This document shows, piece after piece, positions 3,013 through 31,930 of a stretch of 32,035 nucleotides of DNA. A program made the translations under genes and the position numbers. A model generated the notes under the pieces. It had not been told where the DNA came from. It searched no databases and was given only the letters and a program-made list of their open reading frames with translations. Positions within the stretch are counted from its first letter, which is position 1. Every line of letters starts with the position of its first letter. This DNA comes from a virus, in the IMG/VR virus record IMGVR_UViG_3300007734_000575, positions 1-32,035 of that record; one strand, written 5' to 3'.

Positions 3013-4526
3013 TATTTGCGCCAGTAGCGATACTCGCATTATTTGCACCATCGGCAAACGCTGAACCAGTAGCAGGACTACAAACCACCTACTACATAAT
3101 TGACTCTGTACCACCTACACGGTCAGAACACATCTATACCGAATGCGGTAGTGAAGTGGAAAACAATATCAACCGTTCCTATGACGGTGAACCATACCTA
3201 GACTGCACAAACGATTTGTTCATGGTTCACATGACAGGTTTCATCGAGATACCCGAACATGACACAATTGAGTTTTGGTTGGCTACAGACGACGGTGGCA
3301 ACATCAACATTGATGGCAACGAGTGGGGCAACTGGGGCGACCAGGGTTGTTCAGCCTACGAGTCTGGACAGATAGACATTAGTGCAGGCAGTCAGCCTTT
3401 AGATTTATGGATGTACGAAAATGGTGGCGGTACTTGCGTTATGTTGGCTTGGAACATTGACGGTCAAGGTTTTCAAATTGTTCCAGATGGGGCTTTTACA
3501 ACTACAGGTATCCCATTGGATACGACTACAACCATTCAGGAGACAACAACAACATGGGCATCTACCACAACATCCACGACAACCACAACATCAACGACGA
3601 CCACTACTACTACTGCACCCTCTACGACTGTGCCTGTAACAAACCCCTCAACTACTACGACACCTCAAACAACTTCCACATACCCACCAGAGCCGACAAT
3701 GCCAGACCCGCCAGTAACGGTTCCTCTGCCACAAACAACTGAACCAGCCACACCAGAGACAGTCCCCCCTCCACCAGAAATTGAACTGCCTGTTGTACTA
3801 GACCCATTTCCTCAGCCTAGCCCCGATGTTGTGCCAGACCCAATCTTGGAAGTTGTGGACACAATCCCTTTGCCACCAGAGATTGAAAGTTTCCCGCCAG
3901 ATACTTTAGAACTGCCCCCTGAAATATACGATACTATTGCTCCACCGCAAACGCTACCGTTTGTCGGTGAACTACCAGGACCACCTGACACAATCGAATT
4001 GCCACCAGAAATTATGTCCGAACCACCTGAGACTTTGCCAATTAAGTTAATTGCAGAACTACCACCCGAACTTGTCCAAGCCTTGGAAGATGCCAGTGAG
4101 GATGTGTCTTTAACCGATGAACAATTTACCAGAGTCGTAGAAGCCATTGCGGACCTAACGCCAACAGAAGCGGTAGCATTAATTACGCAAATTCTTGCTA
4201 CCGCAGTAACACCAGACCAAGCAACAGAACTGGCATCCAATCCAGATGTGCTTGCTGTTGTGACATCAGAACAGGCAGAAGAAATCTTTGCCACTATTGA
4301 TGTAACCGAATTAGATAACACCCAAATAGAAGAACTGATTACAGCAGTTCAATCCGCACCCACCAAGGTGCGTAAGGCATTTGAGAAGACTATAAACGTC
4401 TTTGGTGACGGTTTGGGCAACTATGTACCAATTGGCTCCAATGTACCCGTACACACACGCAGGACGCTTATAGCGGTGGCTGCTGGGGCTGCCACCGTTG
4501 CAGCAGGTCAACGTAAGAGGAAGTAA
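2991..4526 (+). CDS. exported PA14-domain protein with Thr/Pro stalk and anchor-like C-terminus
   Basis: The product has 511 residues and a GTG start overlapping the previous gene by 22 bases. Residues 1-24 form a signal peptide (basic start, hydrophobic core, cleavage after SANA). Residues about 30-170 fit a PA14 beta-barrel: IEFWLATDDGGNINIDGN, then LDLWMYENGGGTCVMLAWN. Residues 176-235 are a Thr-rich linker; 236-360 are Pro-rich with repeated PPE/LPPEI units; 360-470 are predicted helical. The C-terminus has a hydrophobic stretch (492-505) followed by QRKRK, the layout of a membrane-anchored surface protein. PA14 domains commonly bind glycans. It may be displayed on the infected cell (receptor masking or superinfection exclusion) or be a virion adhesin. 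The function is not proven. Confidence 0.75.
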   Translation: MRTPRWLIFAPVAILALFAPSANAEPVAGLQTTYYIIDSVPPTRSEHIYTECGSEVENNINRSYDGEPYLDCTNDLFMVHMTGFIEIPEHDTIEFWLATDDGGNINIDGNEWGNWGDQGCSAYESGQIDISAGSQPLDLWMYENGGGTCVMLAWNIDGQGFQIVPDGAFTTTGIPLDTTTTIQETTTTWASTTTSTTTTTSTTTTTTTAPSTTVPVTNPSTTTTPQTTSTYPPEPTMPDPPVTVPLPQTTEPATPETVPPPPEIELPVVLDPFPQPSPDVVPDPILEVVDTIPLPPEIESFPPDTLELPPEIYDTIAPPQTLPFVGELPGPPDTIELPPEIMSEPPETLPIKLIAELPPELVQALEDASEDVSLTDEQFTRVVEAIADLTPTEAVALITQILATAVTPDQATELASNPDVLAVVTSEQAEEIFATIDVTELDNTQIEELITAVQSAPTKVRKAFEKTINVFGDGLGNYVPIGSNVPVHTRRTLIAVAAGAATVAAGQRKRK

Positions 4527-4543
4527 CAGCCAGCACTATAGAT

Positions 4544-4711
4544 GTGAAGAAATTTCTATCCGAAATCCATGCTCTGACTTGGACTCTAGCCGGCACTGGT
4601 ATGGTGCTGATTACCCTGTCTGGGTCTACACGGATGTTTGGTATAGAAATTACCGCAATAGCAATAGTCATCCATCTTTTGGGTGCAATCTTATGGGAGA
4701 AAAATGAATAA
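4544..4711 (+). CDS. short two-helix membrane protein, possible holin
   Basis: A frame of 55 residues with a GTG start reads MKKFLSEIHALTWTLAGTGM and continues through two hydrophobic helices: about LTWTLAGTGMVLITLSG, and ITAIAIVIHLLGAIL. It ends in WEKNE. The longer frame over the same DNA (4498-4707) is polar and Cys/His/Tyr-rich, so it is the shadow. No strong Shine-Dalgarno sits before the GTG, and the in-frame stop at 4514-4516 limits the start to this stretch. The gene overlaps the next, also membrane-spanning, gene by 8 bases. Two adjacent short membrane proteins suggest a holin pair, which is inference. Confidence 0.6.
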   Translation: MKKFLSEIHALTWTLAGTGMVLITLSGSTRMFGIEITAIAIVIHLLGAILWEKNE

Positions 4712-4976
4712 GGTAAAAGATATCGCAGGAAGAATTGTGGCATTGTTTCTGACTAACGCTTTAGGCGTTGTCACTGGTGCTGCAGTAATTGCTCCTGATT
4801 TGTCAGTGGCTAAAGCAGCATTGATTGCTGGTGCAGTGTCAGTATTCAAAGTTGTTGAGGGTCTTGCCAAGGCAAGCATTGATGGCGTTTTGACTGCAGA
4901 TGAAATTGATGCAGCGTTTGGTGCTACTCCCAAGAAAATTGCAGCCAAAAAGGCTGCAGCAAAGGTTGCAAAATAA
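4704..4976 (+). CDS. small membrane protein, holin candidate
   Basis: The product has 90 residues from the ATG at 4704, chosen because GGGAG lies about five bases upstream; an upstream in-frame start at 4683 lacks this. Two hydrophobic segments are visible (IVALFLTNALGVVTGAAVIA and AALIAGAVSVFKVVEGLA), followed by a Lys/Ala-rich tail (PKKIAAKKAAAKVAK). Two helices plus a basic tail is the usual holin layout. Its neighbour upstream is another membrane peptide. The probable endolysin gene lies far away at 26161, so the lysis genes would be split. No family match is claimed. Confidence 0.65.
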   Translation: MNKVKDIAGRIVALFLTNALGVVTGAAVIAPDLSVAKAALIAGAVSVFKVVEGLAKASIDGVLTADEIDAAFGATPKKIAAKKAAAKVAK

Positions 4977-5107
4977 TGTCTGCTAAAGGTGAAATGTATA
5001 AGTCCAAGAGTGCTATGAAAAAGCATGAGGGCAAAGAAGGTAAAAAAGAAAAGATGATGGAATACGGCAAGCCTAAAATGAAATCAAAGGCTAAGAAGAA
5101 AAAATAA
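4976..5107 (+). CDS. 43-residue Lys-rich peptide
   Basis: This short gene starts with an ATG overlapping the preceding stop (TAATG) and ends directly before the terminase start. The product begins MSAKGEMYKSKSAMKKHEGK, is about 40 percent Lys, and contains MMEYGK, a motif also found at the C-terminus of the basic protein at 11353. It lacks any fold signature and is probably disordered and nucleic-acid or membrane binding. It sits where a small terminase often lies, but is far too short and lacks a helix-turn-helix, so I do not call it one. Confidence 0.6.
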   Translation: MSAKGEMYKSKSAMKKHEGKEGKKEKMMEYGKPKMKSKAKKKK

Positions 5108-6700
5108 ATGGAACTTACCGACCTTCTCAATGAGAAGGAGTGGCGCAAGTGTAGAGGTCCAGAGAATGCAACTACCGATGAACTGGTGGCTGCGTTCTCA
5201 CACTTCTGTGCCAACTACTGGCACATTAGACATCCTGAGCGTGGTCGTATCAAGTTTGAGATGCGTGAAGCACAGGTTGAAACTGTGCGATGTTGGATTG
5301 AAGACCGATATACAATTGTGCTAAAAGCACGTCAGATTGGTTTTTCTACTTTGGCTGCTGCATTTGCTTTTTGGGAAGTGTTCTATTGGTCTGACCGTTT
5401 CACAGTTATGCTTTCACGCACAGAGCGAGAAGCATCTAAGTTGCTACAGAAGACTAAGTATGGCTACAAGATGTTGCCTTCTTGGATGAGGTTGCGTGGA
5501 CCAAACCTTTTGTCCGACAACCAGTTAAAAATGGTGTTTGCTAATGATTCTGCTTTGGAGTCTTTGCCTTCAGGTAATGACCCTGCTCGTGGCGAATCTG
5601 TATATCGAGTGTTCATTGACGAAATGGCATTTTTGCCCAACGCTGATGAAGCATGGGCATCTATTGAACCTATTGCCGACATTGGTGGTCGTGTTGTTTG
5701 TTTGAGTACAGCCAACGGTGAAGGCAATATATTCCATCAATTATGGGTTGGTTCACAAACTGGAACCAATCGTTTTGTTGGTATCTTTTTTCCTTGGTCT
5801 GCTGGAGACCGTGACGAAGCATGGTATGAAGCAAAGAAACGTGACCTACCTGACTGGCAGTTAGCACAGGAGTATCCGGACAATGCGGAAGAAGCGTTTA
5901 TTCGTTCTGGTCGTCCCGTGTTTGACCTTGAAGCAATCCGACAGATTGAACCTGTTGAACCCGACAGGGGTTATCTAAAGAATACTCTTGGTAAAAATGT
6001 TTACACATTTTTGAAAGATGGTGGTGAACTTGCTATTTGGGATTATCCAGACCGACAAGAAATCTATGTTATTGGGGCTGACGTCGCAGAAGGATTAGGT
6101 CATGGTGACTTCAGTTCTGCCCATGTAATTTCGGCAAGCACAGGAATGATGGTTGCTCACTGGCATGGTCATGTTGATGCAGACATTTTTGGTGAAGAAG
6201 TTCTTAAGGCTTTAGGGTTTTATTACAATTATGCCCTTATTGGGGTTGAGTCAAACAACCACGGACTAACTACTCTAAAAGCGTTGCAACGGGTTGGTTA
6301 TAGAAACATTTATCGTCAACGCAAGATGAACCATCGAAACCCTATTGTTTCTGAAACTATGGGTTGGAGAACTACATCTGTTTCTAAGCCTTTGGCTATT
6401 GATGAACTTAATGCTGCCCTTCGAGACTCATCCATGTTGCTTTATGACGCCAAGACAATGGCTGAGTTGCGTACATTTGTGCGTGAAGCCAACGGCAAGA
6501 TGCATGGTTCTCCACATGACGACAGGGTGATGTCTTTAGCAATTACAAATCAGATGCTTAAATATGTTTGGTTGCCTGAGTACCGTTATGATGCTTCACC
6601 TGTTAAAAATACTTTTGGTTGGTGGGAACAACACATTATTCGGGAAAAGAAACAAAAAAGAACACCTATCGGTGCTTTCAATATCAAAAGTAACGAATAA
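5108..6700 (+). CDS. terL: terminase large subunit
   Basis: The product has 530 residues, a normal TerL length. It is the DNA-packaging motor: an N-terminal ATPase plus a C-terminal RNase H-like nuclease acting at the portal. Visible signatures: Walker A-like LKARQIGFS at residues 72-80, Walker B VFIDE at 168-172, the coupling motif LSTANGEGN at 199-207, nuclease Asp324 in IGADVAEG, Glu381 in GVESNNHG, and Asp471/472 in HDDR. It starts immediately after the upstream stop. The deviant Walker A (ARQIGFS rather than GxxxxGKS) is common among phage terminases. No small terminase subunit is recognisable in the window. Confidence 0.95.
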   Translation: MELTDLLNEKEWRKCRGPENATTDELVAAFSHFCANYWHIRHPERGRIKFEMREAQVETVRCWIEDRYTIVLKARQIGFSTLAAAFAFWEVFYWSDRFTVMLSRTEREASKLLQKTKYGYKMLPSWMRLRGPNLLSDNQLKMVFANDSALESLPSGNDPARGESVYRVFIDEMAFLPNADEAWASIEPIADIGGRVVCLSTANGEGNIFHQLWVGSQTGTNRFVGIFFPWSAGDRDEAWYEAKKRDLPDWQLAQEYPDNAEEAFIRSGRPVFDLEAIRQIEPVEPDRGYLKNTLGKNVYTFLKDGGELAIWDYPDRQEIYVIGADVAEGLGHGDFSSAHVISASTGMMVAHWHGHVDADIFGEEVLKALGFYYNYALIGVESNNHGLTTLKALQRVGYRNIYRQRKMNHRNPIVSETMGWRTTSVSKPLAIDELNAALRDSSMLLYDAKTMAELRTFVREANGKMHGSPHDDRVMSLAITNQMLKYVWLPEYRYDASPVKNTFGWWEQHIIREKKQKRTPIGAFNIKSNE

Positions 6701-17896: not shown

Positions 17897-20800
17897 ATGG
17901 CTTCTCAACAAGATTTGTTGGCAAACCTGCAAGCGTTAACCCAGCAGGCACAGGGTGGTATTCCACGCATGGTTGCTCCTACCTCTAGGACCAATGCACC
18001 AGTTTCCACTGCAAGAAAATTTTCTAGTTCCCCCGGTCTGACTGATATGTATGGTGGTCAACAACAGAATGCGGCTGGTGTAAAAACTTCTGTTGGACAA
18101 AATAAGTTGAACGCAACTGCAAGGGTTGCTTCTGCAAGATATCCAGGAATTACGGAACAGGTTGCTTCAGCGAAGGCTGGGCAACAAAAACCTAGTGGTG
18201 CTCTTGGTGTTCTTGCTGGCGTACTGGATAACCCTATTGCCAAAACTGTGCTTGCTCCTTTGGCAGTTATGGATTATGGTCGTCGTGCAATTATTTCTGG
18301 TGTTCGTGAAACCATAGATTTGTTGGATACAGATAAGAATACTAAAGCAAGTATTGGTGATTGGTTTAAACAAACCAAAGACCCCACATATGGTTTTGGT
18401 ACAGCGTTTCCAATGTCTGGAAAACTTGGAAGAGTTGTTGGTTTAGTTGGCGATTTGGCTCTTGACCCTATTAACTGGTTGACTCTTGGTGCTTTTATTC
18501 CAGAAGACCTCGCAATTCAGGGATTGCGAGAAGGGGCACAAGTTGGTGCACGAATTGCTGTAAAAGATTTGGCTGAGGCTAGTGCACATGAGTTGGCTTC
18601 ACTTGGACCTTCACAGTTAATCAACTTGCAGCGTGCCGCTGCAGTTGAAGAAAAAATTGCTTCTGCTGGTGTTAGTGCAAGAACTCTTCTTGGTAAAAGG
18701 TTGGCTAATACTTGGCAAGGTAAAACAAAGTTGGCTGCATTAGTTGACCAACTTGGTGGAAGTGCTGAACTCGTACAGGCTGTTGGTAAGAATGGTCGTC
18801 GTGCCATGAGGGCTGGTATTGACGGTACCGAAGAGGGTATCCGGATGGCAGAAAAACTTGGTTTAGGTAAATCAGGTTTGTATGTTCATGGAACAAAATT
18901 TAGAGTTCCATTTTCTGGTCCTATTGCAGATGTGCTTGAAACTGGTTTGGCTAGAACTAAGGGAACTCTTTTGAGGAGTGCTCCTATTGATTGGTTGGCT
19001 GAACATTTTATTGCTTCTGGAACCAATCAGCAACGAGCGATGCGTGAGTTGCGTCGTGGTTTAACTACAGGCAAGATGATGATTGATGGTGTTGAGAAAC
19101 CTTTGTCTGCTGAGGTTGCTCGTTATGCTGTTCGTTTGCATGGTATGGATTCTATTGCTCGTGGTATTGAAGAAGCGGCTAAAGATACTTATGCAAAACG
19201 TTTGCAAAATATGTTTAATGATTTTCCAGAAATTAAGGAAACAAAAGATACCCTGTATCAGTTTTTAGATTCTGCTCCAGAAAAATGGACTAGACCAATG
19301 ACTGATGTTGAGCAACGTGCTTATGACAAAATAAAGCCTTTGTGGGAACAAATGCACGGAGAAGTTGAACAAGCATTTCAAAAAGTTGACCCAAATTTTA
19401 CTCTTAATCGTTTTGAAAACTATTTGCCTCACATGATGACGGATGATGCAAAAAATTATATTGGCAAGCGCTCTTCTCAGTATGCAGAAGAGATTCGTCA
19501 ATATTTAAAAGTCAACATGACTGACCCTTCTGCTTCTTTCAAGAATCGTGGTTTGGTTAAGGATGCAATGTTTTTTGGTGAAAAACTTACTGCAGATGAT
19601 GTTGCTCAGGGTGTTAGTCGTTTGAATGAAATTGCTAGGTCAAAGGGTTTTGCGGGAAACTTTTTTGAAACAGATATGGAAACCATATTTAAAAAATATG
19701 GTGAACATTATGCATCTTCAATGAGCAACGCAGAGTTTATGCGTCTTGCCAAAGAGGGTGGAATTCTTGCTGAAGCAAAACAAATGGGTAATGTCAGTAA
19801 GGAGTGGTTGGGGCAACAAGCAAAATATGCTGAGTCATTGCGCACTGGTGTTAGTGCTTCGCATAAAGAAATGGCTCTTCGTGCCAAAGAAGCCATTAAA
19901 ACAATTAATGAATACATGGATGCTCTTCGTGGAAACGCAACTGGTAAAAATGCTGGTGGTCTTAAATATGAAGTCAAGGCACTACAAAAAATTCTTAAAA
20001 AAACTGGTACACCTGAAGAAACTTTTGCTGCTTTAACTGCTGCAAAAGAAGCACTCGTTGCCGCCCAAAAAGAAAGTCTTTCTTCTTGGGCTAACTATGT
20101 TAATGCTCTCGACAACGCAAGCGTAATTGTTCAATCAATGCAGGCACAGGTAGATAAAGTTGATAATGCCATCAATGAAGTGTTGAAGGAGATTGACCGT
20201 GTTGGTACTGATTATGCGCAAAACATTTCTAGAATTGGCGCACCTCTTGCGGAGGATGCTAGCCAAATAGATTCTGTTATTGGTAAAGCATTGGTTGATA
20301 ATCCAATGGGCATGGGTGAGCAGATATCTTATGATGATTTGATTAAGTCTTTGGATGCAAAGATGGGTGCTCTTGATGAGCAGTTAAGTTCTCTCACTTC
20401 TTCTTGGGATAGGTCTTTGGCCGTAGAGAATGTTGTGAATGATATTATTGATGGAAAAATTAAATTAGATGACCAATGGCATGTTTCTAGTTCCGACACT
20501 GGTGTTTCGGATTCTTTGCATGAAGCAATCTATGGTGAGATGGATGTAAAAAAACCTAAAGTTCTTGCTCAAATGAATAGAAGAAATATTTCCGCTATTT
20601 GGGATGAAGCAAATCTTACTCCTGAGATGAGAGTTATTAAATCAATCTTTGACCCAGAAGGAAAAATTACTTCTACTCGTTTGGGTCAGATTGGTCTTGA
20701 CGATACATATGTATCAAAAGTTGTTAATGGCAAAAGGGTCTATACGTCTGAAGTAAAGACTCGTGGTATTTATAGTCGTATTGCTTCCGGTACTACGGAA

Positions 20801-23800
20801 GCAAATAACATAACCGAACTGCGTGAGGCTGGTGTTTGGTTGATTGTGCGTGATACTTTGCATGACCCAGAGTATGCAAAATTAATTGCTAATGGTTTAA
20901 AAGACACAAGCACATCATTGGAGAAGGCTACATATAATCGTTATCAAAACTTGCAGGAGTTATTGTTACAGGCTCATGCAATGGGTGATTATAATTTTTC
21001 TACAAAAAGTGCAACTATTACCAATGGCATTGAAAGAACTCAAGCACAGATTTCTGGTCTTGAAGATAACCTGCAAGAAGTTATTGCTAGGTGGGAAACA
21101 GGTGAATCCCTGTTTCCATCTCAGGCAGAATACGATAGGGCCGTTAATGCTACAAGAGTAAAAATAGATAAACTACAGCAATCAATTATTAGACAGACAA
21201 AGGGATTAGATAAGTATCAGCAACTTGCTGTTTCAACTGCGACTACACCTACTGGTTATCGAGACCTTGTTTCTGATTTGGCTTCTGGTGTTCAGGAGTA
21301 CTATTTGCATAGGGAGACCACTCTTCATTTTAATCGTGCGATGCAAACGGCAGATACAATTGATATTGTATTGCCGTTGGAGTTGTGGAATACAACTTTG
21401 GCTGAGGTTGCAAAACCTTTGCTTTCTTCAAAAGTTGCATATAAGAAACAACTCGTAGAAGCACAACAAGTAATATCAGATTTGCAAGAAACTATAAACA
21501 AGACTGGTAACAATATTTCTGATGCAGAAATATTGACAATTCGTGAACGTCTTCTTGCTACGGAACAAACATCTTTGCGAACAAAAACTGTATCTAATGC
21601 AAAAAGACGCAATACACGTTTGCAGGGTTATTCAAATTTTATTTCCACAGAAGAAGCAGGAACATGGGGTCCGCAAAAAGAAAAAATTCTTGGAGAACTA
21701 TTATCTGGAGTTACAAATCAGTCTGAAAGAGATGCAATTCGCAAAAAAGTACTTGAACAAGTAGTTGAAGTTCCTAGTGTTGATGGTGCACAAACTGTAG
21801 TTAAGGGAACAAAAAATAGGGTTCGTGTTATTGAACGTGCCGGCGAGTGGGGACCACAAAAACAAAGACTTTTTGACGCAGAACTATCTCAATCAAATAA
21901 CATTGACAACTCTATTGTGTTTCGTGAAGAACTAGCAAAGATTTTTAGAGCAGAACGCAAAGTTGGTAAAAGTGGAAAAGTATTGGCAGATTCTGCACAC
22001 ACAACAGAAGAACTTGCTTTGTTGCGTAAAAAAGAATTGTTGGATAATCATTTTCCAGAACTTCGTTCTGTTTGGATTAAGTCAAGAACCTCTCAACGTG
22101 ATATCCTTTTCTACAAACACCCTAAAGCATTTGAACTTGAAAACAATGTAATTGCAGCATTGCAGGATTTAGGTCTGCAGTCCGACCTGCAAGCATCTAG
22201 GGGTGCCAGAAGAGGTGCACGTTCTCTTGTTCTTGGTGGAACTGGAGAAGCGATACTCGAGGGTATGTCCGTTGTTGGTCAAAGTGCCGAACAGCAGGCT
22301 GCAACTATTGCTGGAAAATATCGCAGTCGCATTCGTAGTGCTATTAATAAATTGGAAAGAGAAGTTCTCAAAAAAGAAACAGAATTGGCAAATCCAAAAG
22401 GAAATTTAACAACTAATGTTGGCGATGTATTACGTCAAGAAGTAAAAGAAAAAAAGGTTCGCATCACAGAACTTGCTAAACAGTTTGACGAAATAGACAA
22501 AGAGGTTGTCGTAGATAGAAAATTGGCGGCAGAACAATTAAAGAAACTTCAAAGTCAATCTAATATTCGAGCAGCAAAAGGTAGTCTAAAAAAACTTATT
22601 GACAATGGCGACCAATATGGTTATGCAAAATTGATTGGTCAAATTTTAACAGAAGGTACAAGTGATTCTGCTGTTGCTACATCAAGAAGGTCTTTGGCAA
22701 ATTTCTTTTCAGAAATTTTGGGTGGAGATACAAGTTACTATCTTCCAACTCTTGGTAGAAGAGAAAAAAGAACTATTAGTGAAGTGGATTCTTTTTTTGG
22801 TAGGACAACAAGAAAAATTGATAGTCATATAGTTGGTTTGAAGACTCTTGTTAATGACACTAATCTTCCAACAAATAAAATGTTGGAAGGTGTAGCCGGA
22901 GAAGTTGGAACAAGTGGAAGATATATACCTGGTAGTTGGCTTATGCGAATAGAACTTCGTGGTGCAGAAGGTATGGCTTCTGCCCTAGAAGAACATGCAA
23001 ATAGATTATTGACAGCAGTTGAAAATGTTAAAAGAAATCCTGTTGATATTAGACTTGCGGAAAAGCGTTTGGCTACCGCTCAACGTGCAGGAGTTCGTTT
23101 GCAGGCACAGATTGATGCTATGGCTGCAACACCAGACTTTGTGCGTGCACAGACAAGGTTGTCGGAACATCAAGTGATAATGGCTTTGGCTGGTGCTGAT
23201 ACCAAGGTTGCTGAGATGTTGGGTTTTACTAAATTTGAAATTGATTCTTTGTTTGATGAACCTTTGCGTCAAACCGATGTTCTCGGTTTGCGCAGGCAGG
23301 AAAAACAGTTAACATTCGAGCGTAATCGTTTGATGGCACAGCGTGAAAGAGTTGTTAAGTCACGTGGAATGTACGAAGCACGACAGATGCCTGTTGAGGC
23401 AAAATTGGTTGAGGTTGAAAATTCTTTGTTGGATGTTCAAAAGCAACTTATGGAGCATGAGAGTCGTGGTTCTGCTTTAGAGAAGTTGGGTTCTTTAACT
23501 AGGAATCTTGAGGACAGTAATTTACAAAAACAAATTGCTGCAGAGTCTGGTGTTGAAATTAAGTTTGCAACAGATGCACCAGTTGCTACTACTGGAACAT
23601 ACACAAATCCTCCTGCTGGAGAATTTAGACTGGAATCTACTGGTTCCAAAACTAGATATGCTGCTGAACCAAGCAGAAAACTTTCCTATACTCCTTCTGA
23701 GTTTATTAATCTTTTGTCCGACTATGGTGATAATCCGGTTTTGGAAAAAGTTGCAAATTCACGAAAAGCAAAACTTGTTAAAGCATGGAATTCTAGCAAT

Positions 23801-26161
23801 GAAGGTAGATTCTTGGATGAATACAAACAACTTCATAACGAGTTTGATGTATCCAATCATGGTGCTTGGATGTCAGATGGAACAAATGTAACCAAGCGTG
23901 AGCAAGCAATTCGTGCAGAAATTGATTCACTTCGTGAAACAAATAAACAAACACTTCTTGAAGTACCAAAGTTACAAAAACAAATTGTTGACATCATTGA
24001 TAACGAAACTGCATTAACTACACAAAATATTCCAAAGGGAAAAAATGTAGCCCTTGAAAGCAAAGTGCTTGCAGAAGAGGCAAAGGGTGTTGCAGAAGGT
24101 TTAAGATTAAACCCTTCTTCAACTTTGGATGTTCCACGTTATGCCGTACCAGATAAAGCAAAAATTGCTGGAAAGAAAGCCAACATTGTTGGCGAGATGG
24201 ATTCTATTGACCAAATTGTTAATGACCTTCAATTTGATAAAGTTGTTGAGCGTGGATTACAGAAACAAGCATTGGAATATATTGGTCGTCTATCTAGAGA
24301 TGAACAGATTCTTCTAAAAGAAAAAATAGTTGCTAATGCAAGGCTTGCTAAGGCAATGGAAACAAAAGAACTTATGCTTGATGGAAAACTTGCTAAGAAA
24401 GTTTCTTTTGCTTATGCGTTTGAAGTTACAGCAAAACAGGGTGTTGAGAAAGCACAGAAGGCTTTTGATAATGCTGTTCGTCTTAATTCTTGGGGTCCAC
24501 AAAGACTTGTGGACGCCCAACGTGCAGTAGATGATTTGGCTAAGATGGCTAAAGATGGTCGTTATTGGAAGTCCACCATTAGAGAAGGTGGCAACGCTGA
24601 ATGGTTGGCTGATGTAGACCAATTTATTGATGACTCTTCATATCTTATTTCACAGGTTTCTGCTGAAGGTATTCCAAAAGAAATTCGTGCAGTCACAACA
24701 GGATTTATCGAGGCAAGAACAGAGTATCTCACTAAGGCATCTGAACTTACTTCAAAACAGGAAGAGTTCTTATTTAATGAAGGTCTAAAGGGTATGAAGT
24801 TTGCTGGTACATCAAACAAATTTATTCCAATGGAACTACGTGGTAAAGTTCCAGAAGATAAGTTTAGTTTTGTTTCAGAGTTTGATAAAGGTTTTGTTCA
24901 GTTGAGTAAGTTCTTTCCGAGTATTCAAGTTAAAGAAGAGTTGGCTGGAATTATAAGTAATGTTCATAGACTTCAAGACCCTATTGTTGTGCGTGAGTTC
25001 TCGAACTTTATGTCCAAATACACAAAGTTCTTTAAGGCTTACGCCACTTTGAGTCCTGGTTTCCACATTCGCAACGCTATGTCAAATACATTCATGTTGT
25101 TTGCTGGTGGTGGAGATTTGAGCAATCTCAATGAAGGACTAAGGATGAGTAGCAGTTGGCTTGATGCTTCAAAGCGTGGTCTCAATGTTGAGCAGTGGAT
25201 TAAGGAACTTCCAGTTGAAATGCAAACTAAAGCAAAAAATTCTATGAGCGCATTCTTTCAATCTGGTGGTGGTATGACATCAGATTTCTTTGAAACAGGA
25301 AAATCTTTCCGTGGAACTAAATCATCTAAGCAGGTTGGTAGATGGGTTGAAAATCATTCACGCTTTATGATGAGTTGGGATGGTGTAGCACAGGGTCTCG
25401 ATGCTGAAGCAGCGGCAATCAGAACCCGTAGGTTCTTGATTGACTATGCAGATGTTTCTACTGGTGACAGAGTTATGCGTCAGATTGTCCCGTTTTGGAT
25501 GTGGACTTCACGCAACTTGCCAATGCAGATTAGCAACATGTGGATTAACCCGAAGGCTTATTCGGTTTACAATACTGTTAAGAGAAACTTCAATGCAGAC
25601 CAAGAGGGTGATGTTATTCCACAATGGATGCAAGAAATTGGAGCATTCAAATTGCCATTTGGTAAAGATGTATATGCCACACCAGACTTTGGTTTCAACA
25701 GAGTGGGTCAACAAATATCTGAATTCCAAGACCCACAACGTTTATTGGCTAACGTCAACCCTTTGTTGCGTGTTCCAGTTGAGTTGATGGGTGGAAGACA
25801 GTTGTATTCCAACCGTCCTTTCTCTCAGAACCCAACAAAAGTTGAGAATGGTGCAGGCGCAATCCTGCAACCATTCCTACAAGCACTTGGTTATGGTGAG
25901 ACTGGTCCTACTGGTGACAAGTTTGTGAATGATAAAGCGTACTATGCGCTGAGAAACCTTATCCCATTTGCAGGAACAGCGGAACGATTGACACCATCTA
26001 TTGACACATATCAACAACGTGGATATGTGAATCCATTACTTGGTTTCTTGGGTGTACCAGGAAGACAGGTTAAAGAAAAAGAAAAGCAAAATGAGTTAAT
26101 TCGTCGTCAAAAGGCAATTGAAGCATTGGTATCTAAACAGAAAGTATTGGAAGGAAAATAA
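17897..26161 (+). CDS. giant 2754-residue virion (ejection-type) protein
   Basis: One uninterrupted frame covers a quarter of the window; AAAGGA precedes the ATG. Near residues 100-125 lies a hydrophobic segment (ALGVLAGVLDNPIAKTVLAP), and near 180 LVGDLALDPINWLTLGAF. NRFENYLPHMM lies near 508. Residues about 700-2300 are mainly charged and coiled-coil. WGPQ(K/R) motifs sit near 1256, 1317 and 2198. The C-terminal region has LSPGFHIRNAMSNTFMLF near 2384 and DYADVSTGDRVMRQIVPFWM, then WTSRNLP, near 2515-2535; I recall similar motifs in giant proteins of other phages. No RNA polymerase, protease or transglycosylase motif is evident. It is probably ejected with the DNA, like T7 gp16 or N4 gp50, but this is inference. 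Confidence 0.8.
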   Translation: MASQQDLLANLQALTQQAQGGIPRMVAPTSRTNAPVSTARKFSSSPGLTDMYGGQQQNAAGVKTSVGQNKLNATARVASARYPGITEQVASAKAGQQKPSGALGVLAGVLDNPIAKTVLAPLAVMDYGRRAIISGVRETIDLLDTDKNTKASIGDWFKQTKDPTYGFGTAFPMSGKLGRVVGLVGDLALDPINWLTLGAFIPEDLAIQGLREGAQVGARIAVKDLAEASAHELASLGPSQLINLQRAAAVEEKIASAGVSARTLLGKRLANTWQGKTKLAALVDQLGGSAELVQAVGKNGRRAMRAGIDGTEEGIRMAEKLGLGKSGLYVHGTKFRVPFSGPIADVLETGLARTKGTLLRSAPIDWLAEHFIASGTNQQRAMRELRRGLTTGKMMIDGVEKPLSAEVARYAVRLHGMDSIARGIEEAAKDTYAKRLQNMFNDFPEIKETKDTLYQFLDSAPEKWTRPMTDVEQRAYDKIKPLWEQMHGEVEQAFQKVDPNFTLNRFENYLPHMMTDDAKNYIGKRSSQYAEEIRQYLKVNMTDPSASFKNRGLVKDAMFFGEKLTADDVAQGVSRLNEIARSKGFAGNFFETDMETIFKKYGEHYASSMSNAEFMRLAKEGGILAEAKQMGNVSKEWLGQQAKYAESLRTGVSASHKEMALRAKEAIKTINEYMDALRGNATGKNAGGLKYEVKALQKILKKTGTPEETFAALTAAKEALVAAQKESLSSWANYVNALDNASVIVQSMQAQVDKVDNAINEVLKEIDRVGTDYAQNISRIGAPLAEDASQIDSVIGKALVDNPMGMGEQISYDDLIKSLDAKMGALDEQLSSLTSSWDRSLAVENVVNDIIDGKIKLDDQWHVSSSDTGVSDSLHEAIYGEMDVKKPKVLAQMNRRNISAIWDEANLTPEMRVIKSIFDPEGKITSTRLGQIGLDDTYVSKVVNGKRVYTSEVKTRGIYSRIASGTTEANNITELREAGVWLIVRDTLHDPEYAKLIANGLKDTSTSLEKATYNRYQNLQELLLQAHAMGDYNFSTKSATITNGIERTQAQISGLEDNLQEVIARWETGESLFPSQAEYDRAVNATRVKIDKLQQSIIRQTKGLDKYQQLAVSTATTPTGYRDLVSDLASGVQEYYLHRETTLHFNRAMQTADTIDIVLPLELWNTTLAEVAKPLLSSKVAYKKQLVEAQQVISDLQETINKTGNNISDAEILTIRERLLATEQTSLRTKTVSNAKRRNTRLQGYSNFISTEEAGTWGPQKEKILGELLSGVTNQSERDAIRKKVLEQVVEVPSVDGAQTVVKGTKNRVRVIERAGEWGPQKQRLFDAELSQSNNIDNSIVFREELAKIFRAERKVGKSGKVLADSAHTTEELALLRKKELLDNHFPELRSVWIKSRTSQRDILFYKHPKAFELENNVIAALQDLGLQSDLQASRGARRGARSLVLGGTGEAILEGMSVVGQSAEQQAATIAGKYRSRIRSAINKLEREVLKKETELANPKGNLTTNVGDVLRQEVKEKKVRITELAKQFDEIDKEVVVDRKLAAEQLKKLQSQSNIRAAKGSLKKLIDNGDQYGYAKLIGQILTEGTSDSAVATSRRSLANFFSEILGGDTSYYLPTLGRREKRTISEVDSFFGRTTRKIDSHIVGLKTLVNDTNLPTNKMLEGVAGEVGTSGRYIPGSWLMRIELRGAEGMASALEEHANRLLTAVENVKRNPVDIRLAEKRLATAQRAGVRLQAQIDAMAATPDFVRAQTRLSEHQVIMALAGADTKVAEMLGFTKFEIDSLFDEPLRQTDVLGLRRQEKQLTFERNRLMAQRERVVKSRGMYEARQMPVEAKLVEVENSLLDVQKQLMEHESRGSALEKLGSLTRNLEDSNLQKQIAAESGVEIKFATDAPVATTGTYTNPPAGEFRLESTGSKTRYAAEPSRKLSYTPSEFINLLSDYGDNPVLEKVANSRKAKLVKAWNSSNEGRFLDEYKQLHNEFDVSNHGAWMSDGTNVTKREQAIRAEIDSLRETNKQTLLEVPKLQKQIVDIIDNETALTTQNIPKGKNVALESKVLAEEAKGVAEGLRLNPSSTLDVPRYAVPDKAKIAGKKANIVGEMDSIDQIVNDLQFDKVVERGLQKQALEYIGRLSRDEQILLKEKIVANARLAKAMETKELMLDGKLAKKVSFAYAFEVTAKQGVEKAQKAFDNAVRLNSWGPQRLVDAQRAVDDLAKMAKDGRYWKSTIREGGNAEWLADVDQFIDDSSYLISQVSAEGIPKEIRAVTTGFIEARTEYLTKASELTSKQEEFLFNEGLKGMKFAGTSNKFIPMELRGKVPEDKFSFVSEFDKGFVQLSKFFPSIQVKEELAGIISNVHRLQDPIVVREFSNFMSKYTKFFKAYATLSPGFHIRNAMSNTFMLFAGGGDLSNLNEGLRMSSSWLDASKRGLNVEQWIKELPVEMQTKAKNSMSAFFQSGGGMTSDFFETGKSFRGTKSSKQVGRWVENHSRFMMSWDGVAQGLDAEAAAIRTRRFLIDYADVSTGDRVMRQIVPFWMWTSRNLPMQISNMWINPKAYSVYNTVKRNFNADQEGDVIPQWMQEIGAFKLPFGKDVYATPDFGFNRVGQQISEFQDPQRLLANVNPLLRVPVELMGGRQLYSNRPFSQNPTKVENGAGAILQPFLQALGYGETGPTGDKFVNDKAYYALRNLIPFAGTAERLTPSIDTYQQRGYVNPLLGFLGVPGRQVKEKEKQNELIRRQKAIEALVSKQKVLEGK

Positions 26162-27225: not shown

Positions 27226-27394
27226 TTCTTTTTTTCCTTTTCTTATTAGCAACATATATGAACCCGTAGGGCATACCGTTTTCCGATATTCCCTGACCCA
27301 CAGTAACGTCGCCGTAATGCGCTGCAAGAATCCGAGCAACCGTATGCGGGCTAACCTCAACATCAAAACCCACTGTTATCTGTCTCGTCGTCAA
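27218..27394 (-). CDS. short basic-tailed protein
   Basis: This is a frame of about 58 residues between the sigma-like gene and the next gene. The start is uncertain: TTG at 27394 has AGAGAGG at good spacing, TTG at 27400 is too close to it, and GTG at 27373 has a weaker site. The core reads ITVGFDVEVSPHTVARILAA, then HYGDVTVGQGISENGMPYGF, and ends NKKRKKRNV. The helix SPHTVARILAAHYG is amphipathic, and the basic tail suggests nucleic-acid binding. It overlaps the next gene by 8 bases. No family is recognised. Confidence 0.45.
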   Translation of the reverse strand: MTTRQITVGFDVEVSPHTVARILAAHYGDVTVGQGISENGMPYGFIYVANKKRKKRNV

Positions 27395-27746
27395 AGCCAA
27401 GCCTCTCTCTAATTATTGGATGTTTGATAAGAATTGATTGTAGTCGTTCGTATGCAGAGTTTCGCAATCTCCAGGCATGAGTTTTTGTAACGCCAAGACG
27501 CTCACCAAGTTCTTGTAGGGAAATCATTTCAGAGTTAAGTGCATCAATAATGAAACGGTCTTGTTCGTTGAGTTGCTCTATACAAGAAGCGATGGCTTCT
27601 CGGAGCGGTTGTAGTTCTTGAACTGATTCAATAGTTGCTTCACCAATTCCAGCCATCATTAAGGCTTCCATCGGCGTTTCAGGTCGCCTACCTCCACGCA
27701 ATGTACTTGCGTGGTAGGGGTTAAGGGAGACTTCTTTATTCTTCAA
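27363..27746 (-). CDS. sigma-70 region 4-like DNA-binding protein
   Basis: The product has 127 residues. Residues about 48-108 read PLREAIASCIEQLNEQDRFI, then LNSEMISLQELGERLGVTKT and HAWRLRNSAYERLQSIL. This is a sigma-70 region 4 type helix-turn-helix, with a turn at GERLGVTKTHAW and the xxAxERLxxxL ending. There is no region 2, so it is not a complete sigma factor; it may be an anti-sigma or co-activator, or a transcription switch for the late block. It overlaps the upstream gene by 11 bases in the leftward operon. Confidence 0.7.
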   Translation of the reverse strand: MKNKEVSLNPYHASTLRGGRRPETPMEALMMAGIGEATIESVQELQPLREAIASCIEQLNEQDRFIIDALNSEMISLQELGERLGVTKTHAWRLRNSAYERLQSILIKHPIIRERLGFDDETDNSGF

Positions 27747-28164
27747 GACTTATTACTAAACAATTTTCAATTGGTATTTCAAAAAATGCTTCCCCATCTG
27801 TGTATATCGTATTTTTTGTAATTAACTTTTTAAATTCTTTTCCATCAACTATCAAGATGTGAGTTCGCTCGTGATTGAACATCACGAAGCGAACATGTTT
27901 TGTTGTGTCAAGAAACTTATATTTGCGTGATGCGAAATGAACGGATTTGTATGGGAACTCTGGTCCTTTCCAGTTGTGTTTTATTTCCACTTCTATACCA
28001 GTGTTTTCCCCCATCCAGTTGCTCAACAGGTCAATTCCGTATTGGTCTGGATTTATTTCTGCTTCAATATCTTTTGAGTGAAGCCAGTCGAGCAAACTTT
28101 CTTTTACAGAGTCGTCTGCGTTGTAAAGGTTTCTGTCAAATACTTTAGATATTGGTTTCATCAT
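27736..28164 (-). CDS. PD-(D/E)XK-like nuclease domain protein
   Basis: The product has 142 residues, with two adjacent ATG codons possible as start. The segment INPDQYGIDLLSNWM followed by GIEVEIKHNWKG presents Asp45 and Glu60-x-Lys62, the D...ExK arrangement of restriction-endonuclease-like folds, with strand-helix surroundings of the right kind (RKYKFLDTTKHVRFVMFNHE; THILIVDG). The size suits a single-domain nuclease. It overlaps the zinc-ribbon gene upstream by 20 bases. Roles could include recombination, host DNA degradation or DNA end processing. Catalysis is inferred from motif spacing only. Confidence 0.6.
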   Translation of the reverse strand: MMKPISKVFDRNLYNADDSVKESLLDWLHSKDIEAEINPDQYGIDLLSNWMGENTGIEVEIKHNWKGPEFPYKSVHFASRKYKFLDTTKHVRFVMFNHERTHILIVDGKEFKKLITKNTIYTDGEAFFEIPIENCLVISLEE

Positions 28165-28330
28165 CAGCCTTTAGTACTTCTATGTTTGAACCGGACATTT
28201 TTAACAATCTACCATCTTTGCCTATTGCGACCCACGACGTTGCGTCTGGGTCACAGCGACAACCTTGCAATTGATTTGGGTTATGCACAACTGTTGTGGC
28301 ACATTGTCTACATCTGATTGAGTACATCAT
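28145..28330 (-). CDS. small zinc-ribbon protein
   Basis: The product has 61 residues. It has Cys7-x2-Cys10 and Cys24-x-Cys26 (IRCRQC and GCRCD), probably a zinc ribbon with a compressed second knuckle. The remainder is beta (SWVAIGKDGRLLKMSGSNIE). Its ATG overlaps the stop of the RusA-like gene (ATGATG). It sits between a resolvase and a nuclease-like gene, so a DNA-binding helper is plausible but unproven. Confidence 0.6.
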   Translation of the reverse strand: MMYSIRCRQCATTVVHNPNQLQGCRCDPDATSWVAIGKDGRLLKMSGSNIEVLKADDETNI

Positions 28331-28689
28331 GCTTTCTCCAAATATAAGCAGACAATTTGTTTGTCATCTGTGTATGCCACACCGTTGAGTGCGTCAAGCA
28401 CAGACTTGGCATAGTTGTCTATGTCTCCTGTGAGTTTAGTTTTTGGTCCTTCAACTAATGGATTGTTTGTTACTGGTTCAATCATGAGTTCGGTTCCCTC
28501 TGTGGTGAAGCGCAACTTCACCGACAGAAGACCGACCTCAAATAGTGGACCTTTATATAAGTCTGCTATTGACTTCTCATAATCCATTGTTGCTTTGGGT
28601 GTGTAGGCACGACCTGTTCTTGTCATTCGTGGTCGTGCTTTTGCTTTGGGTCGTACAGCAAAGTTTTGGTGGTACTGATACTTCTTCAT
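28327..28689 (-). CDS. RusA-like Holliday-junction resolvase
   Basis: The product has 120 residues, the usual RusA size. It has the basic N-terminal segment PKAKARPRMTRTGRAYTPKA and the signature GDIDNYAKSVLDALNGVAYT followed by DDKQI, giving acidic residues Asp89, Asp91, Asp99 and Asp108/109 for Mg2+-dependent cleavage of four-way junctions. It would resolve branched replication intermediates before packaging. It overlaps the primase gene by four bases and lies in the leftward replication operon. Confidence 0.88.
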   Translation of the reverse strand: MKKYQYHQNFAVRPKAKARPRMTRTGRAYTPKATMDYEKSIADLYKGPLFEVGLLSVKLRFTTEGTELMIEPVTNNPLVEGPKTKLTGDIDNYAKSVLDALNGVAYTDDKQIVCLYLEKA

Positions 28690-29585
28690 GGTCTGAATGC
28701 TCCTGTTGTGTCTTCGCCGTAAATGTCTTCAACTATCTTCACTAACTGCTCAACGCAATCTGACCTGAGGTGGAACTTGCCCCAACGCTTGTCAGCGTCG
28801 TGGAGCACAATGTATGCCATGTTCATTGGTGTTCCGTACTCATGCATCTTGTGAACCATCTTACACAGAGTGTTTGACCTATCTCGTGATTCGAATGGTC
28901 CGTTCCTCCAAATGTTTTTGACAAACGCATTCACATGAGTGAGTGCTTCTTGGACTGACGCTGATGTTTGTAGTTGGTCAAGCACAGCACGAGTCCTTGG
29001 ACGATGCCTTTCTGCAAGGGGTCGCAAAAGATTTATGTTCACCCTTGTGTCGTATGCCGAGTCAATGAACTGTTTGAGTGTCATCGGTTCATCTTCTCTG
29101 TCAAACAACATGTATCTGTTCTCTGGCATGCTGTCAATCCCACCCGGATATGGCAAACGAACATAGTTACCTAGTCCGTTTGCTTCTTCCTGTTTGGGGT
29201 TCACCTCTTTTGGTGGTAGTCCAATCACCTCATGTGCCGACAAGAATGCTCGGCGCATGATTGGTGCTGGAATCCAATCGTTGGCAAATACCCACACATG
29301 GAATCCTCTAGCAGTTTTCTCCACATATGAGGGAACAGATTTAACTCTGAGTGCTGTTTGTAGGTTTCGTGCAGCGTCAAGGTCATCCACATCAATGTCG
29401 GAACATCCCCAACGAACGGATGAACCGTCTGTTAGGGGATAGATGCCGATGAGTTCTTCGCCATATAAATGTTTGGCGAATGTTTCGTATGATACGGGTG
29501 ATTTCTTTGAGCCACCTTCCCATGTTCCGTGTGCATCAGTTCTGCCACCGAACAGCAACATGAATTTTTCTATTGGGTCATTCAT
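28686..29585 (-). CDS. archaeo-eukaryotic-type primase (AEP)
   Basis: The product has 299 residues. The catalytic motifs of AEP primases appear in order: Asp63/Asp65 in CSDIDVDD (hDhD), His96 in ARGFHVWVF (the sxH motif), and GNYVRLPYPGG at 139-149, as seen in primases of phages, plasmids and TOTE-type systems. The C-terminal third is helical (SVQEALTHVNAFVKNIW; YGTPMNMAYIVLHDADKRWG) and may be a PriCT-like or helicase-binding domain. It starts inside the helicase gene's end (8-base overlap), which suggests they act as a pair: primer synthesis and unwinding. No polymerase domain is fused. Confidence 0.85.
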   Translation of the reverse strand: MNDPIEKFMLLFGGRTDAHGTWEGGSKKSPVSYETFAKHLYGEELIGIYPLTDGSSVRWGCSDIDVDDLDAARNLQTALRVKSVPSYVEKTARGFHVWVFANDWIPAPIMRRAFLSAHEVIGLPPKEVNPKQEEANGLGNYVRLPYPGGIDSMPENRYMLFDREDEPMTLKQFIDSAYDTRVNINLLRPLAERHRPRTRAVLDQLQTSASVQEALTHVNAFVKNIWRNGPFESRDRSNTLCKMVHKMHEYGTPMNMAYIVLHDADKRWGKFHLRSDCVEQLVKIVEDIYGEDTTGAFRP

Positions 29586-30600
29586 GGAGCAGTCCTAACT
29601 GGTGGTACTGCTGTGGTAGCGCAGAGTCCAAGTCTGTTAGACGACCTGTGTGTGCGTCCAATTCAAAGTGGATGTCATCTACAAGTTGTCCAGCAGGTCG
29701 CTTGTTCTTCAGCAAGTTGATGGTCACGGTGTATTCGTGAACCTTTGCTTCGTAACGCAACTCATCGAGTCTGTCTTGTGCACGCTCTGAATGTGAACGG
29801 TCAAGTTTCTCTGTGAGTTCCTGTATCTCTGCAGCAATCTGATATTTTTTGCGCCTTACACCAATGATTGATGTCGCTTGTTGTTCTCCACCGAACGCAC
29901 CTGATGACATGGTGAGTTTCGCACCGTCAGCACCTGCGTGTCTAGATGTTTGGTGCAGAACCAACATTGGGATGTTGTGTCTGCGTCCGAACCCTTTAAG
30001 GAAGGTTGCTTTGTCGGGTACTGTCTCTCCTGCTTCTACCAAATCTAGGTAGTCAACAACTACCAAGTCAGGTACTTGACCCCACACATCACAGAGTTCA
30101 TTGTAACCCCGTTCCATGTCTGATGAAGTTAGTGGCTGGTCAAACACAGCGAGGTTTGGAAAGTCCTCTTCTGCTGTTTGTCGGAGTAGGTTGATGGCTT
30201 CTTTGTCATCACGGGCTACTCGTGCTTCCAGTTCTCGTGCATCAATGTTGTGATGCATACAGGTGAGTTTGGTTAGGACGAGTTGTCTTGGCTCGTCTGG
30301 AATGAACATAGCGATGTGTTTGTCACGGTTGTTGCGAAGTGCATGAAGTAGTAAGAGCGTCTTACCACCGTGAGCGAAGCCCAACATCATGCAGATTTCT
30401 CCTGCCGCAATTCCACGCATCTCTGCGTCAATTTTATCTATGCCTAAATGCACTCTCTCATGTGGTGTCTGTGCCCATCTTACGAATGAGTCAACAGAGT
30501 CACCTAACGGAGAATACAGTCGGTACTCGGATGGTGGAGCGACTTGTGGTCGCCCCACCGATTCCCAGCCCGCAGCAATTTGCTCTGCGGTCATCTTCAT
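29578..30600 (-). CDS. DnaB/RecA-fold replicative helicase
   Basis: The product has 340 residues. Walker A is GFAHGGKTLLLL (Lys80-Thr81), and Walker B is DLVVVDYLDL (Asp183). Later motifs MLVLHQTSRHAGADG (sensor-like) and FGGEQQATSIIGVRRKKYQ followed by TINLLKNKRPAG match the end of DnaB-like F4 helicases. The N-terminal DnaB primase-binding domain is missing, so this is a minimal hexameric helicase; contact with the AEP primase may use another surface. The segment LTEKLDRSHSERAQDRLDEL is an unusual coiled-coil insertion between motifs. It is tightly coupled with neighbouring genes. Confidence 0.88.
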   Translation of the reverse strand: MKMTAEQIAAGWESVGRPQVAPPSEYRLYSPLGDSVDSFVRWAQTPHERVHLGIDKIDAEMRGIAAGEICMMLGFAHGGKTLLLLHALRNNRDKHIAMFIPDEPRQLVLTKLTCMHHNIDARELEARVARDDKEAINLLRQTAEEDFPNLAVFDQPLTSSDMERGYNELCDVWGQVPDLVVVDYLDLVEAGETVPDKATFLKGFGRRHNIPMLVLHQTSRHAGADGAKLTMSSGAFGGEQQATSIIGVRRKKYQIAAEIQELTEKLDRSHSERAQDRLDELRYEAKVHEYTVTINLLKNKRPAGQLVDDIHFELDAHTGRLTDLDSALPQQYHQLGLLHE

Positions 30601-31061
30601 TATTTGGCTCGTGGTGGCCAGTAAGCCTTCTCAGCCTCTACGGCTTTGAAGTGTGGACGTTTCGCATTCGCTTCTAAACCGTCACGGTTGTCATACACCT
30701 TGACTACACCATCACGCTTGCACGCTTTGATAAGCCAATCTGGAATCTCTCCGTGTTGCTTGCCTACGATTTGAATTGAACCAGTAGAACCACTTGACTT
30801 AGGTTGCGCTGACGATGTTTCCACTTCGGTTGAACCCGAGAATGAATCCTTAATCATCTGAACAACGTTATTGTTTTGTGCTACTGCTGTTGCTGTTGCT
30901 TGCTTGCTCTCCCCATAAATTGCTTCAATGAGGATGTCGTTGACAGTGGAAAACAAAACTGCGAACTCACCGAGTCGTGAGTCAACATCTTTTGTCTTAT
31001 CGGTCATGTCTGACGCAATCTTTGCGCAGACCTGTGTGATAATTGCTCTGTCTTTGTCCAT
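30600..31061 (-). CDS. replication-operon protein with conserved-looking C-terminal domain
   Basis: The product has 153 residues. A helical N-terminus (IITQVCAKIASDMTDKTK; LGEFAVLFSTVNDILIEAIY) is joined by a Ser/Thr/Gly-rich linker (residues about 75-95) to a compact C-terminal part, IPDWLIKACKRDGVVKVYDN, then KRPHFKAVEAEKAYWPPRAK. The basic-aromatic end and position between a nuclease and a helicase suggest ssDNA binding or helicase loading, but no OB-fold or acidic SSB tail is visible. The start overlaps the previous stop (TAATG). Confidence 0.6.
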   Translation of the reverse strand: MDKDRAIITQVCAKIASDMTDKTKDVDSRLGEFAVLFSTVNDILIEAIYGESKQATATAVAQNNNVVQMIKDSFSGSTEVETSSAQPKSSGSTGSIQIVGKQHGEIPDWLIKACKRDGVVKVYDNRDGLEANAKRPHFKAVEAEKAYWPPRAK

Positions 31062-31930
31062 TAGTTTGCCTCCTCGGCATTGTTGTCACCCACACTGATG
31101 TGTGAGCCCTTGCACAACGACCACACCGAACACCATCTTGGTGAACATAGAAAGTGTTGGTCGTTGACTAGCCATCTTTCCGATGGCAAGTTATTTGATA
31201 CGGTCAACAAAGTGTTGACCAAAGATGTTGCTTGCTGAACTATCCATGTGCCATGTCCCTCTGTTCTTGTGACACCGACAACTTGACCGGTGGAAGAACC
31301 GTTACGAATCATCACACCAAAGTTGAAATTAACATCAAAGTTGGTGAGACCCATCTTAACAGCAGACAGTGCATACACAGATGACTGAATGTTTTGTGAT
31401 TGTTTTTCTGCTTCATAATATTTTCGTGCAGCAGTTTTCCAATCCCAAATACTTTCGGGATGAAAGTAATCCATTGTTCCCTCAAACCAAAGTTCGTATT
31501 GGAATGCAGAGTTCTCTACATCAGCAACTTTGGTTGCGAACTTGAACTCTGTTTGACCACCAGCAGGCACATGAGGGTAGATGTCTCTCACCCATGCGTG
31601 AGCCATTGAGTCAATGTGCTTGTTCCAGTTCTTCGGGTCTGTGTTGGTGACGTTGATGTATTTGCCAGCCTCGTTCATTTCTTTTTCTGTCCAACGGAAC
31701 GACTCAACAGAATGGTCTCCAATATATTGTGGGTCTAGTTCGCCGTTAAGTACGGCTTCAATACCAACATGCACAGCAGTTCCCATCATTGCTGAATCGT
31801 TTTCACGACGCAGTTCAGGATGCAAACTACCGAGCCTTGCTCTCTCAGGACACATCAACGCATCACCTAGCCAAGACTGTCTGACATAGATACGGTTGAC
31901 GGATGTACCATTATCATTTTCTATTCTCAT
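31061..31930 (-). CDS. Cas4/RecB-like Fe-S exonuclease
   Basis: I choose the ATG at 31930 (289 residues), with AGAG about seven bases upstream; a TTG further out at 31975 would run through the GC hairpin. PD-(D/E)XK motifs: His54 in GTAVHVGIEAVL, Asp154 in EGTMDYF, Asp163-x-Lys165 in WDWKTA, and QxxxY at 182-186. Cys27 (LMCPERARL) with Cys262, Cys267 and Cys273 (LCSPRWCSVWSLC) fits the four-Cys iron-sulfur cluster of Cas4 and AddB nucleases. Such enzymes resect DNA ends. It is the first gene of the leftward operon, so it is probably for recombination-dependent replication; no CRISPR array is present. Confidence 0.82.
   Translation of the reverse strand: MRIENDNGTSVNRIYVRQSWLGDALMCPERARLGSLHPELRRENDSAMMGTAVHVGIEAVLNGELDPQYIGDHSVESFRWTEKEMNEAGKYINVTNTDPKNWNKHIDSMAHAWVRDIYPHVPAGGQTEFKFATKVADVENSAFQYELWFEGTMDYFHPESIWDWKTAARKYYEAEKQSQNIQSSVYALSAVKMGLTNFDVNFNFGVMIRNGSSTGQVVGVTRTEGHGTWIVQQATSLVNTLLTVSNNLPSERWLVNDQHFLCSPRWCSVWSLCKGSHISVGDNNAEEAN

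Follow-up and report, generated by a model that had tools for sequence, protein, structure and literature searches.

How does a virus that carries its own helicase and primase, and in whose family no DNA polymerase gene is recognised, copy its genome? The question is raised by a gene block in IMG/VR record IMGVR_UViG_3300007734_000575, a fragmentary phage genome whose entire 32,035 bp constitute the window analysed here. Five genes on the minus strand (31930-28327) follow one another in the order nuclease, a 153-amino-acid protein (p153), helicase, archaeo-eukaryotic primase (AEP) and RusA, with successive overlaps of 1, 1, 8 and 4 nucleotides. An initial annotation, made from the letters alone, had described the nuclease, helicase, AEP and RusA genes as a translationally coupled set suited to recombination-primed replication by a host polymerase. 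Family matches confirm all four genes where they had been placed, and short overlaps are also found at the cassette gene junctions of most related loci, in agreement with coupling. However, a fifth conserved gene, p153, had been left out of the set. We propose that the block is probably a replication-recombination operon, in which the phage would supply its own helicase and AEP primase, borrow DNA polymerase III (Pol III) from the host, and use the nuclease and RusA to produce concatemers.

An IMG/VR scan with the AEP showed relatives encoded in 143 stretches, and the best 80 of 143 were used; the locus counts given here also include the circular GenBank genome MW202803.1. All five genes were present in identical order in every related viral locus uncut by a contig end (73/73), and in each of the 8 loci that deviated from the full cassette a contig end cut the block short. 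The same arrangement was seen when a divergent helicase was used to anchor a second locus set, and searches seeded from MW202803.1 returned nothing further in IMG/VR. That the order is conserved in 73 of 73 untruncated loci indicates that the cassette is not the product of chance. The five cassette proteins, together with a core of virion proteins, were also present in each of the 18 other genomes compared. The block is a conserved DNA-replication/recombination gene set of a family of small viruses.

Because the window is the whole record, the presence of a polymerase beside the cassette had to be judged from relatives. Polymerase families were searched for in 29 related records (28 for polymerase A) of 32 to 51 kb, with positive controls that matched, and DNA_pol_A (28 records), DNA_pol_B and DNA_pol3_alpha (29 records) gave no match. 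Seven of the records close end to end via exact end repeats, of 123 bp in G002, G007, G008 and G015 and of 127 bp in G012, G017 and G025, so that the polymerase absence there is not due to truncation; such repeats are more readily read as a circular map whose ends overlap in the assembly than as terminal repeats of biological origin. A Pfam scan of 40 genes of one end-closed relative found virion, lysis, amidoligase and regulatory families, and no polymerase, single-stranded DNA-binding protein (SSB), annealase, Sak, RecA-like protein, integrase or Cas family, while a PHROG scan of the complete relative showed no polymerase among its strongest families. The lack of a phage polymerase in related complete genomes points to a host polymerase, as the initial annotation had supposed; a phage polymerase gene beside the operon had been the first of its two refuting conditions. 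On this gene content, the idea that the virus would use a host DNA polymerase is well supported, and the absent phage polymerase suggests that it most likely depends on host Pol III.

The helicase of the cassette matched PF03796 DnaB_C (E 2.1e-11) and phrog_19 (E 8e-24), its profile match in the PDB was the C-terminal region of Geobacillus DnaB, and its Walker motifs, A (G74-x4-GKT81) and B (VVVDY184), are intact; it also has a C-terminal KNKRP. As had been noted at the outset, it lacks the DnaB N-terminal domain: DnaB_C was matched and DnaB_N was not, the approximately 50 residues ahead of the DnaB_C match are too few for that domain, and TIGR00665, which describes full-length DnaB, scored 33.6 bits against a cut-off of 385. 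The predicted coiled-coil insert at residues 253-288, in which the initial annotation saw a possible contact site for the primase, is constant in length in 31 of 32 sequences and shows roughly double the sequence variability of the RecA core (mean entropy 0.99 vs 0.49). A pattern scan of bacterial genomes for relatives of this helicase found none that encodes one, and no prophage or host came to light.

The primase assignment is borne out by profile, fold and invariant motifs. The protein matched PF22548 AEP-TOTE (E 1.4e-16), its motif I (D63-I-D65) and motif II (H96 in G94-F-H96) are invariant among relatives, and E127-V-N-P-K131-Q is conserved. Its AEP domain most resembles the CRISPR-associated Prim-Pol (CAPP) of Marinitoga (PDB 7nqd, 7nqf and 7p9j), without the CRISPR context. 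This likeness was seen by profile (E 2.7e-21) and by Foldseek (E 2.4e-13), and the AEP model superposed on MsCAPP with a Z of 22.8 and a root-mean-square deviation of 2.6 over 185 residues at 23% identity, compared with a Z of about 10 for LigD-type and Prim-PolC structures. The Prim-Pol domain fold and motifs are common to both. By contrast, the phage AEP lacks the TPR domain, has a short helical C-terminal domain and has no Cas1/Cas2 neighbours. PriCT_1 matched this helical domain of about 100 residues weakly, in 3 of 46 relatives (best E 0.0037). Assignment of the AEP to CAPP type A1 was rejected: NF040561 matched the AEP domain only (E 4.6e-18), with 65 bits against a cut-off of 200, and the Pfam scan of the complete relative showed no cas1/cas2 operon. 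Non-CRISPR CAPP homologues had already been noted in phages by the authors of the CAPP study, who proposed a viral origin (PMC8211822).

Alternatively, the AEP itself might be the replicase, priming and copying the genome as proposed for the deep-sea phage NrS-1 and for archaeal plasmid Prim-Pols. Its closest solved relative is a Prim-Pol that acts as a DNA polymerase in vitro, priming and extending with dNTPs (PMC8211822), and no other polymerase was found in these genomes. However, AEPs have no proof-reading and are thought to be mainly primases in vivo (PMC5862659), a 40-kb genome would be a large one for such an enzyme to copy, and conservation within the same relatives is lower for the AEP than for the helicase (about 45-50% vs about 70%). 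We regard a replicase role as quite improbable.

The nuclease matched PF12705 above the cut-off (E 2e-5) and the exonuclease family phrog_69. Four cysteines that flank the nuclease core (C27, C262, C267 and C273) and the RecB-type catalytic motifs (H54, D154, D163-W-K165 and Q182-x3-Y186) are invariant in 38 non-redundant relatives, and loss of the cysteines in relatives, the second refuting condition of the initial annotation, was not seen. From these residues we infer that the protein would bind an iron-sulfur (Fe-S) cluster. The last three cysteines are spaced C-x4-C-x5-C; the spacing of Cas4/AddB is C-x2-C-x5-C. No Cas family was found in the Pfam scan of one complete relative or in the window operon, so the cas1/cas2 genes by which a CAS-Cas4 is recognised are absent. 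The initial annotation held a Cas4-like protein without CRISPR to merit study in itself, but Cas4-like proteins of pfam12705 outside CRISPR loci have already been reported in mycobacteriophages and other phages, and share with it PF12705, four cysteines and the lack of CRISPR neighbours (PMC5704561). The window nuclease differs from them in its C-x4-C-x5-C spacing and in its fixed partners p153, helicase and AEP.

With a Cas4-like and a CAPP-like enzyme in one block, it could be argued that the two form a counter-defence or CRISPR-adaptation-like pair rather than part of a replication unit. Both have CRISPR-adaptation relatives, PADLOC matched the AEP to CRISPR-associated PrimPol, and a Campylobacter phage Cas4-like protein influences spacer acquisition in the host (PMC5704561). 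However, Cas1/Cas2 are absent from the scanned complete relative, the AEP is in every case flanked by a replicative helicase and RusA, and its NF040561 score is far below the cut-off, which leaves this pairing scarcely credible.

Recombination as the source of primers was the mode favoured by the initial annotation. In this T4-late or lambda-red-like scheme, ends resected by the nuclease supply 3' strands for invasion, and the resulting D-loops are extended by the host polymerase, with the helicase and AEP confined to the lagging strand. An exonuclease-type nuclease does share the operon with RusA, whose acidic residues (G88-D89-x-D91-N92 and D108-D109) are near-invariant; P22/SU10-type portal and adaptor matches were present in the Pfam scan of the complete relative; and host RecA, or an unrecognised phage gene, could still serve. 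By contrast, no RecT or SSB family was found in the 29 records, the annealase, Sak and RecA-like families are missing from the Pfam scan of the complete relative, and a dedicated primase and helicase make recombination unnecessary for initiation. Because the phage keeps its own helicase and primase, and RecT and SSB were not found, recombination-priming is unsupported, and we consider it unlikely. Replication that is primed by the AEP and carried out by host Pol III, on the pattern of plasmid RSF1010, appears to be the better fit. In the replication-recombination operon that we propose, the DnaB-type helicase would, by its family, unwind phage DNA; the AEP, by its fold and conserved motifs, would lay primers on the single strands; and the host Pol III replisome would extend them. 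P22/SU10-like packaging needs concatemers, and the Fe-S nuclease and RusA may process ends and junctions, such that recombination gives concatemers for headful packaging of this type.

The part of the cassette that is least understood is p153, which sits between nuclease and helicase and is as conserved in presence as the other cassette genes. Its invariant residues are W109, C114, D124, N125, R126, R135, P136 and W148. A model built with 36 sequences (pLDDT 75, pTM 0.36) shows a confident N-terminal helical hairpin (1-75), joined by a disordered linker to a small C-terminal alpha/beta domain (97-153), into which W109, C114, D124-N-R126 and W148 fall. Comparison with Pfam, PHROGs, NCBIfam, PDB sequences and PDB folds gave no convincing relative beyond uncharacterised phage proteins, and at a pLDDT of 75 the lack of a structural match does not speak for a new fold. 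Two BFVD proteins share p153 at 43-45% identity, one of them an uncharacterised protein of an uncultured phage. Being always beside the helicase, p153 might load or adapt it in place of the absent N-terminal domain; alternatively, it might be an origin-binding or single-stranded DNA-binding factor. Both roles are speculative and suggested by position alone. A bolder reading takes the whole as a phage replisome of an undescribed kind, in which the CAPP-like Prim-Pol would replace DnaG, p153 would stand in for the missing helicase N-terminal domain as both loader and primase-helicase adaptor, host Pol III would be taken over, and the coupled Fe-S nuclease and RusA would drive replication-linked recombination; this is conceivable, although we hold it to be rather doubtful.

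Several points weigh against the proposed operon. A loader role for p153 is guessed from its position, and the protein has no detectable known fold. The in vitro polymerase activity of related CAPP Prim-Pols means that the AEP might do more than prime. PolB_2 was not found in the related records, but that search was run without a positive control, and a polymerase of an unrecognisable type is possible among the many unknown genes. Finally, the origin, iterons and initiator were not identified, and no tandem repeats or skew switch clearly marked an origin.

Table 1. Positions of the cassette genes, their notable elements and adjacent genes in the window
Feature	Coordinates	Strand	Evidence
Cas4/AddB-like PD-(D/E)XK nuclease, 289 amino acids	31061..31930 (ATG 31930, stop 31061)	-	PF12705, phrog_69
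Cys27 codon, first Fe-S ligand candidate	31850..31852	-	invariant residue
Cys262-x4-Cys267-x5-Cys273 cluster, Fe-S ligand candidates	31112..31147	-	invariant residues
p153, conserved 153-amino-acid protein	30600..31061	-	found in every untruncated relative
DnaB-type (superfamily 4) hexameric helicase core, 340 amino acids	29578..30600	-	PF03796, phrog_19
Predicted coiled-coil insertion, helicase residues 253-288	29737..29844	-	sequence only
AEP primase, 299 amino acids	28686..29585	-	PF22548, NF040561, 7nqf/7nqd
AEP Prim-Pol domain, residues ~1-197; helical C-terminal domain, residues 200-290			weakly PriCT-like (C-terminal domain)
RusA-family Holliday junction resolvase, 120 amino acids	28327..28689	-	PF05866 E 1.3e-16, phrog_140
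61-amino-acid open reading frame directly downstream, no family	28145..28330	-	overlaps RusA by 4 nucleotides
127-amino-acid small sigma-70 region-4-like regulator	27363..27746	-	PF04545 E 3.5e-4, TIGR02937 E 2.4e-7

Known systems place the cassette between the familiar and the uncommon. MW202803.1 (Podoviridae sp. ct52p938, from Manatee Spring, circular, 42 kb) has the five genes in cassette order and no annotated polymerase. Its identities to the window are 43% for the helicase, 37% for the AEP, 28% for the nuclease and 52% for the terminase, with p153 lower and partial, and it differs in having extra genes inside the block (HD-domain and zinc-ribbon) and no WhiB match. Two tRNA genes (Met and Trp; L082:22219-22366) were also found in MW202803.1, and none in the window or the other related genomes scanned. 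More distant AEP relatives (profile E 1e-13 to 1e-24) lie near a helicase in Pelagibacter phage HTVC027P, phage 023Pt_psg01 and phage DSL-LC04. By contrast with the window, these phages encode DNA polymerase A within a few genes' distance, and the annotation of their helicases names other types; next to them, the polymerase lack in the window's family is notable. Lambdoid phages such as P22 have helicase-plus-primase systems that use host Pol III. In plasmid RSF1010, the RepA helicase, the AEP primase RepB' and the initiator RepC act with host Pol III, which extends the primers (PMC4538821). Since such Pol III-borrowing systems are known, the lack is not strange. The likeness to RSF1010 is one of functional logic, own helicase and AEP with host Pol III, and RepB' (3h20) is among the AEP structural matches. 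However, the primase family differs by sequence, no iterons or RepC-like initiator were recognised in the phage, and the phage adds a nuclease and RusA. Host-polymerase borrowing is a known strategy; the set of parts is uncommon.

Other genes bear on the kind of phage involved. A WhiB gene, a marker of actinophages (PMC6802176), is present in 19 of 29 related records (6105-6356 in the complete relative L005), and the window record stops before reaching the equivalent region. Two isolated 'Ca. Nanopelagicales' phages match in size, G+C, whiB and a sigma-70 gene, a likeness by these traits (PMC10202952). The family most likely consists of lytic-looking, short-genome (about 38-42 kb) phages that infect freshwater Actinobacteria. 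The 127-amino-acid protein encoded downstream of the cassette and co-directional with it, and retained in 17 of the 18 other genomes, has a sigma-70 region-4-like domain as its only domain and is perhaps a phage sigma fragment or a late activator. In L005, adjacent amidoligase (PF12224) and class-II glutamine amidotransferase-like genes (3086-4183 and 4248-5264) lie upstream of the cassette; the pair recurs in 16 of the 18 other genomes and may modify cell wall or peptide. A quarter of the window (17897-26161) encodes a single protein of 2,754 amino acids. It has no Pfam or PHROG match, is represented by homologues in every genome compared and may be an internal virion protein or one that is injected. 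A 511-amino-acid protein (2991-4526) looks like a surface protein: it has a signal-like start, matches PA14 weakly, contains a long stretch rich in Thr and Pro and carries a hydrophobic C-terminal segment that ends in RKRK. Near the tail-region genes, a 162-amino-acid protein (2524-3012) has a weak sulfotransferase match and a P-loop-like start (FPRSGNHFLQN).

What is documented here is a fixed module for replication, shared by a widespread phage family whose members are likely freshwater actinophages and in which replication is essentially unstudied. The cassette AEP is a clean phage relative of CRISPR-associated Prim-Pols and fits the suggested origin of these enzymes from viral replicative Prim-Pols (PMC8211822). 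Of most interest are p153 and the combination of a CAPP-like primase and a DnaB helicase devoid of its N-terminal domain, p153 being the missing piece that may let such a helicase work with an archaeal-type primase on bacterial Pol III.

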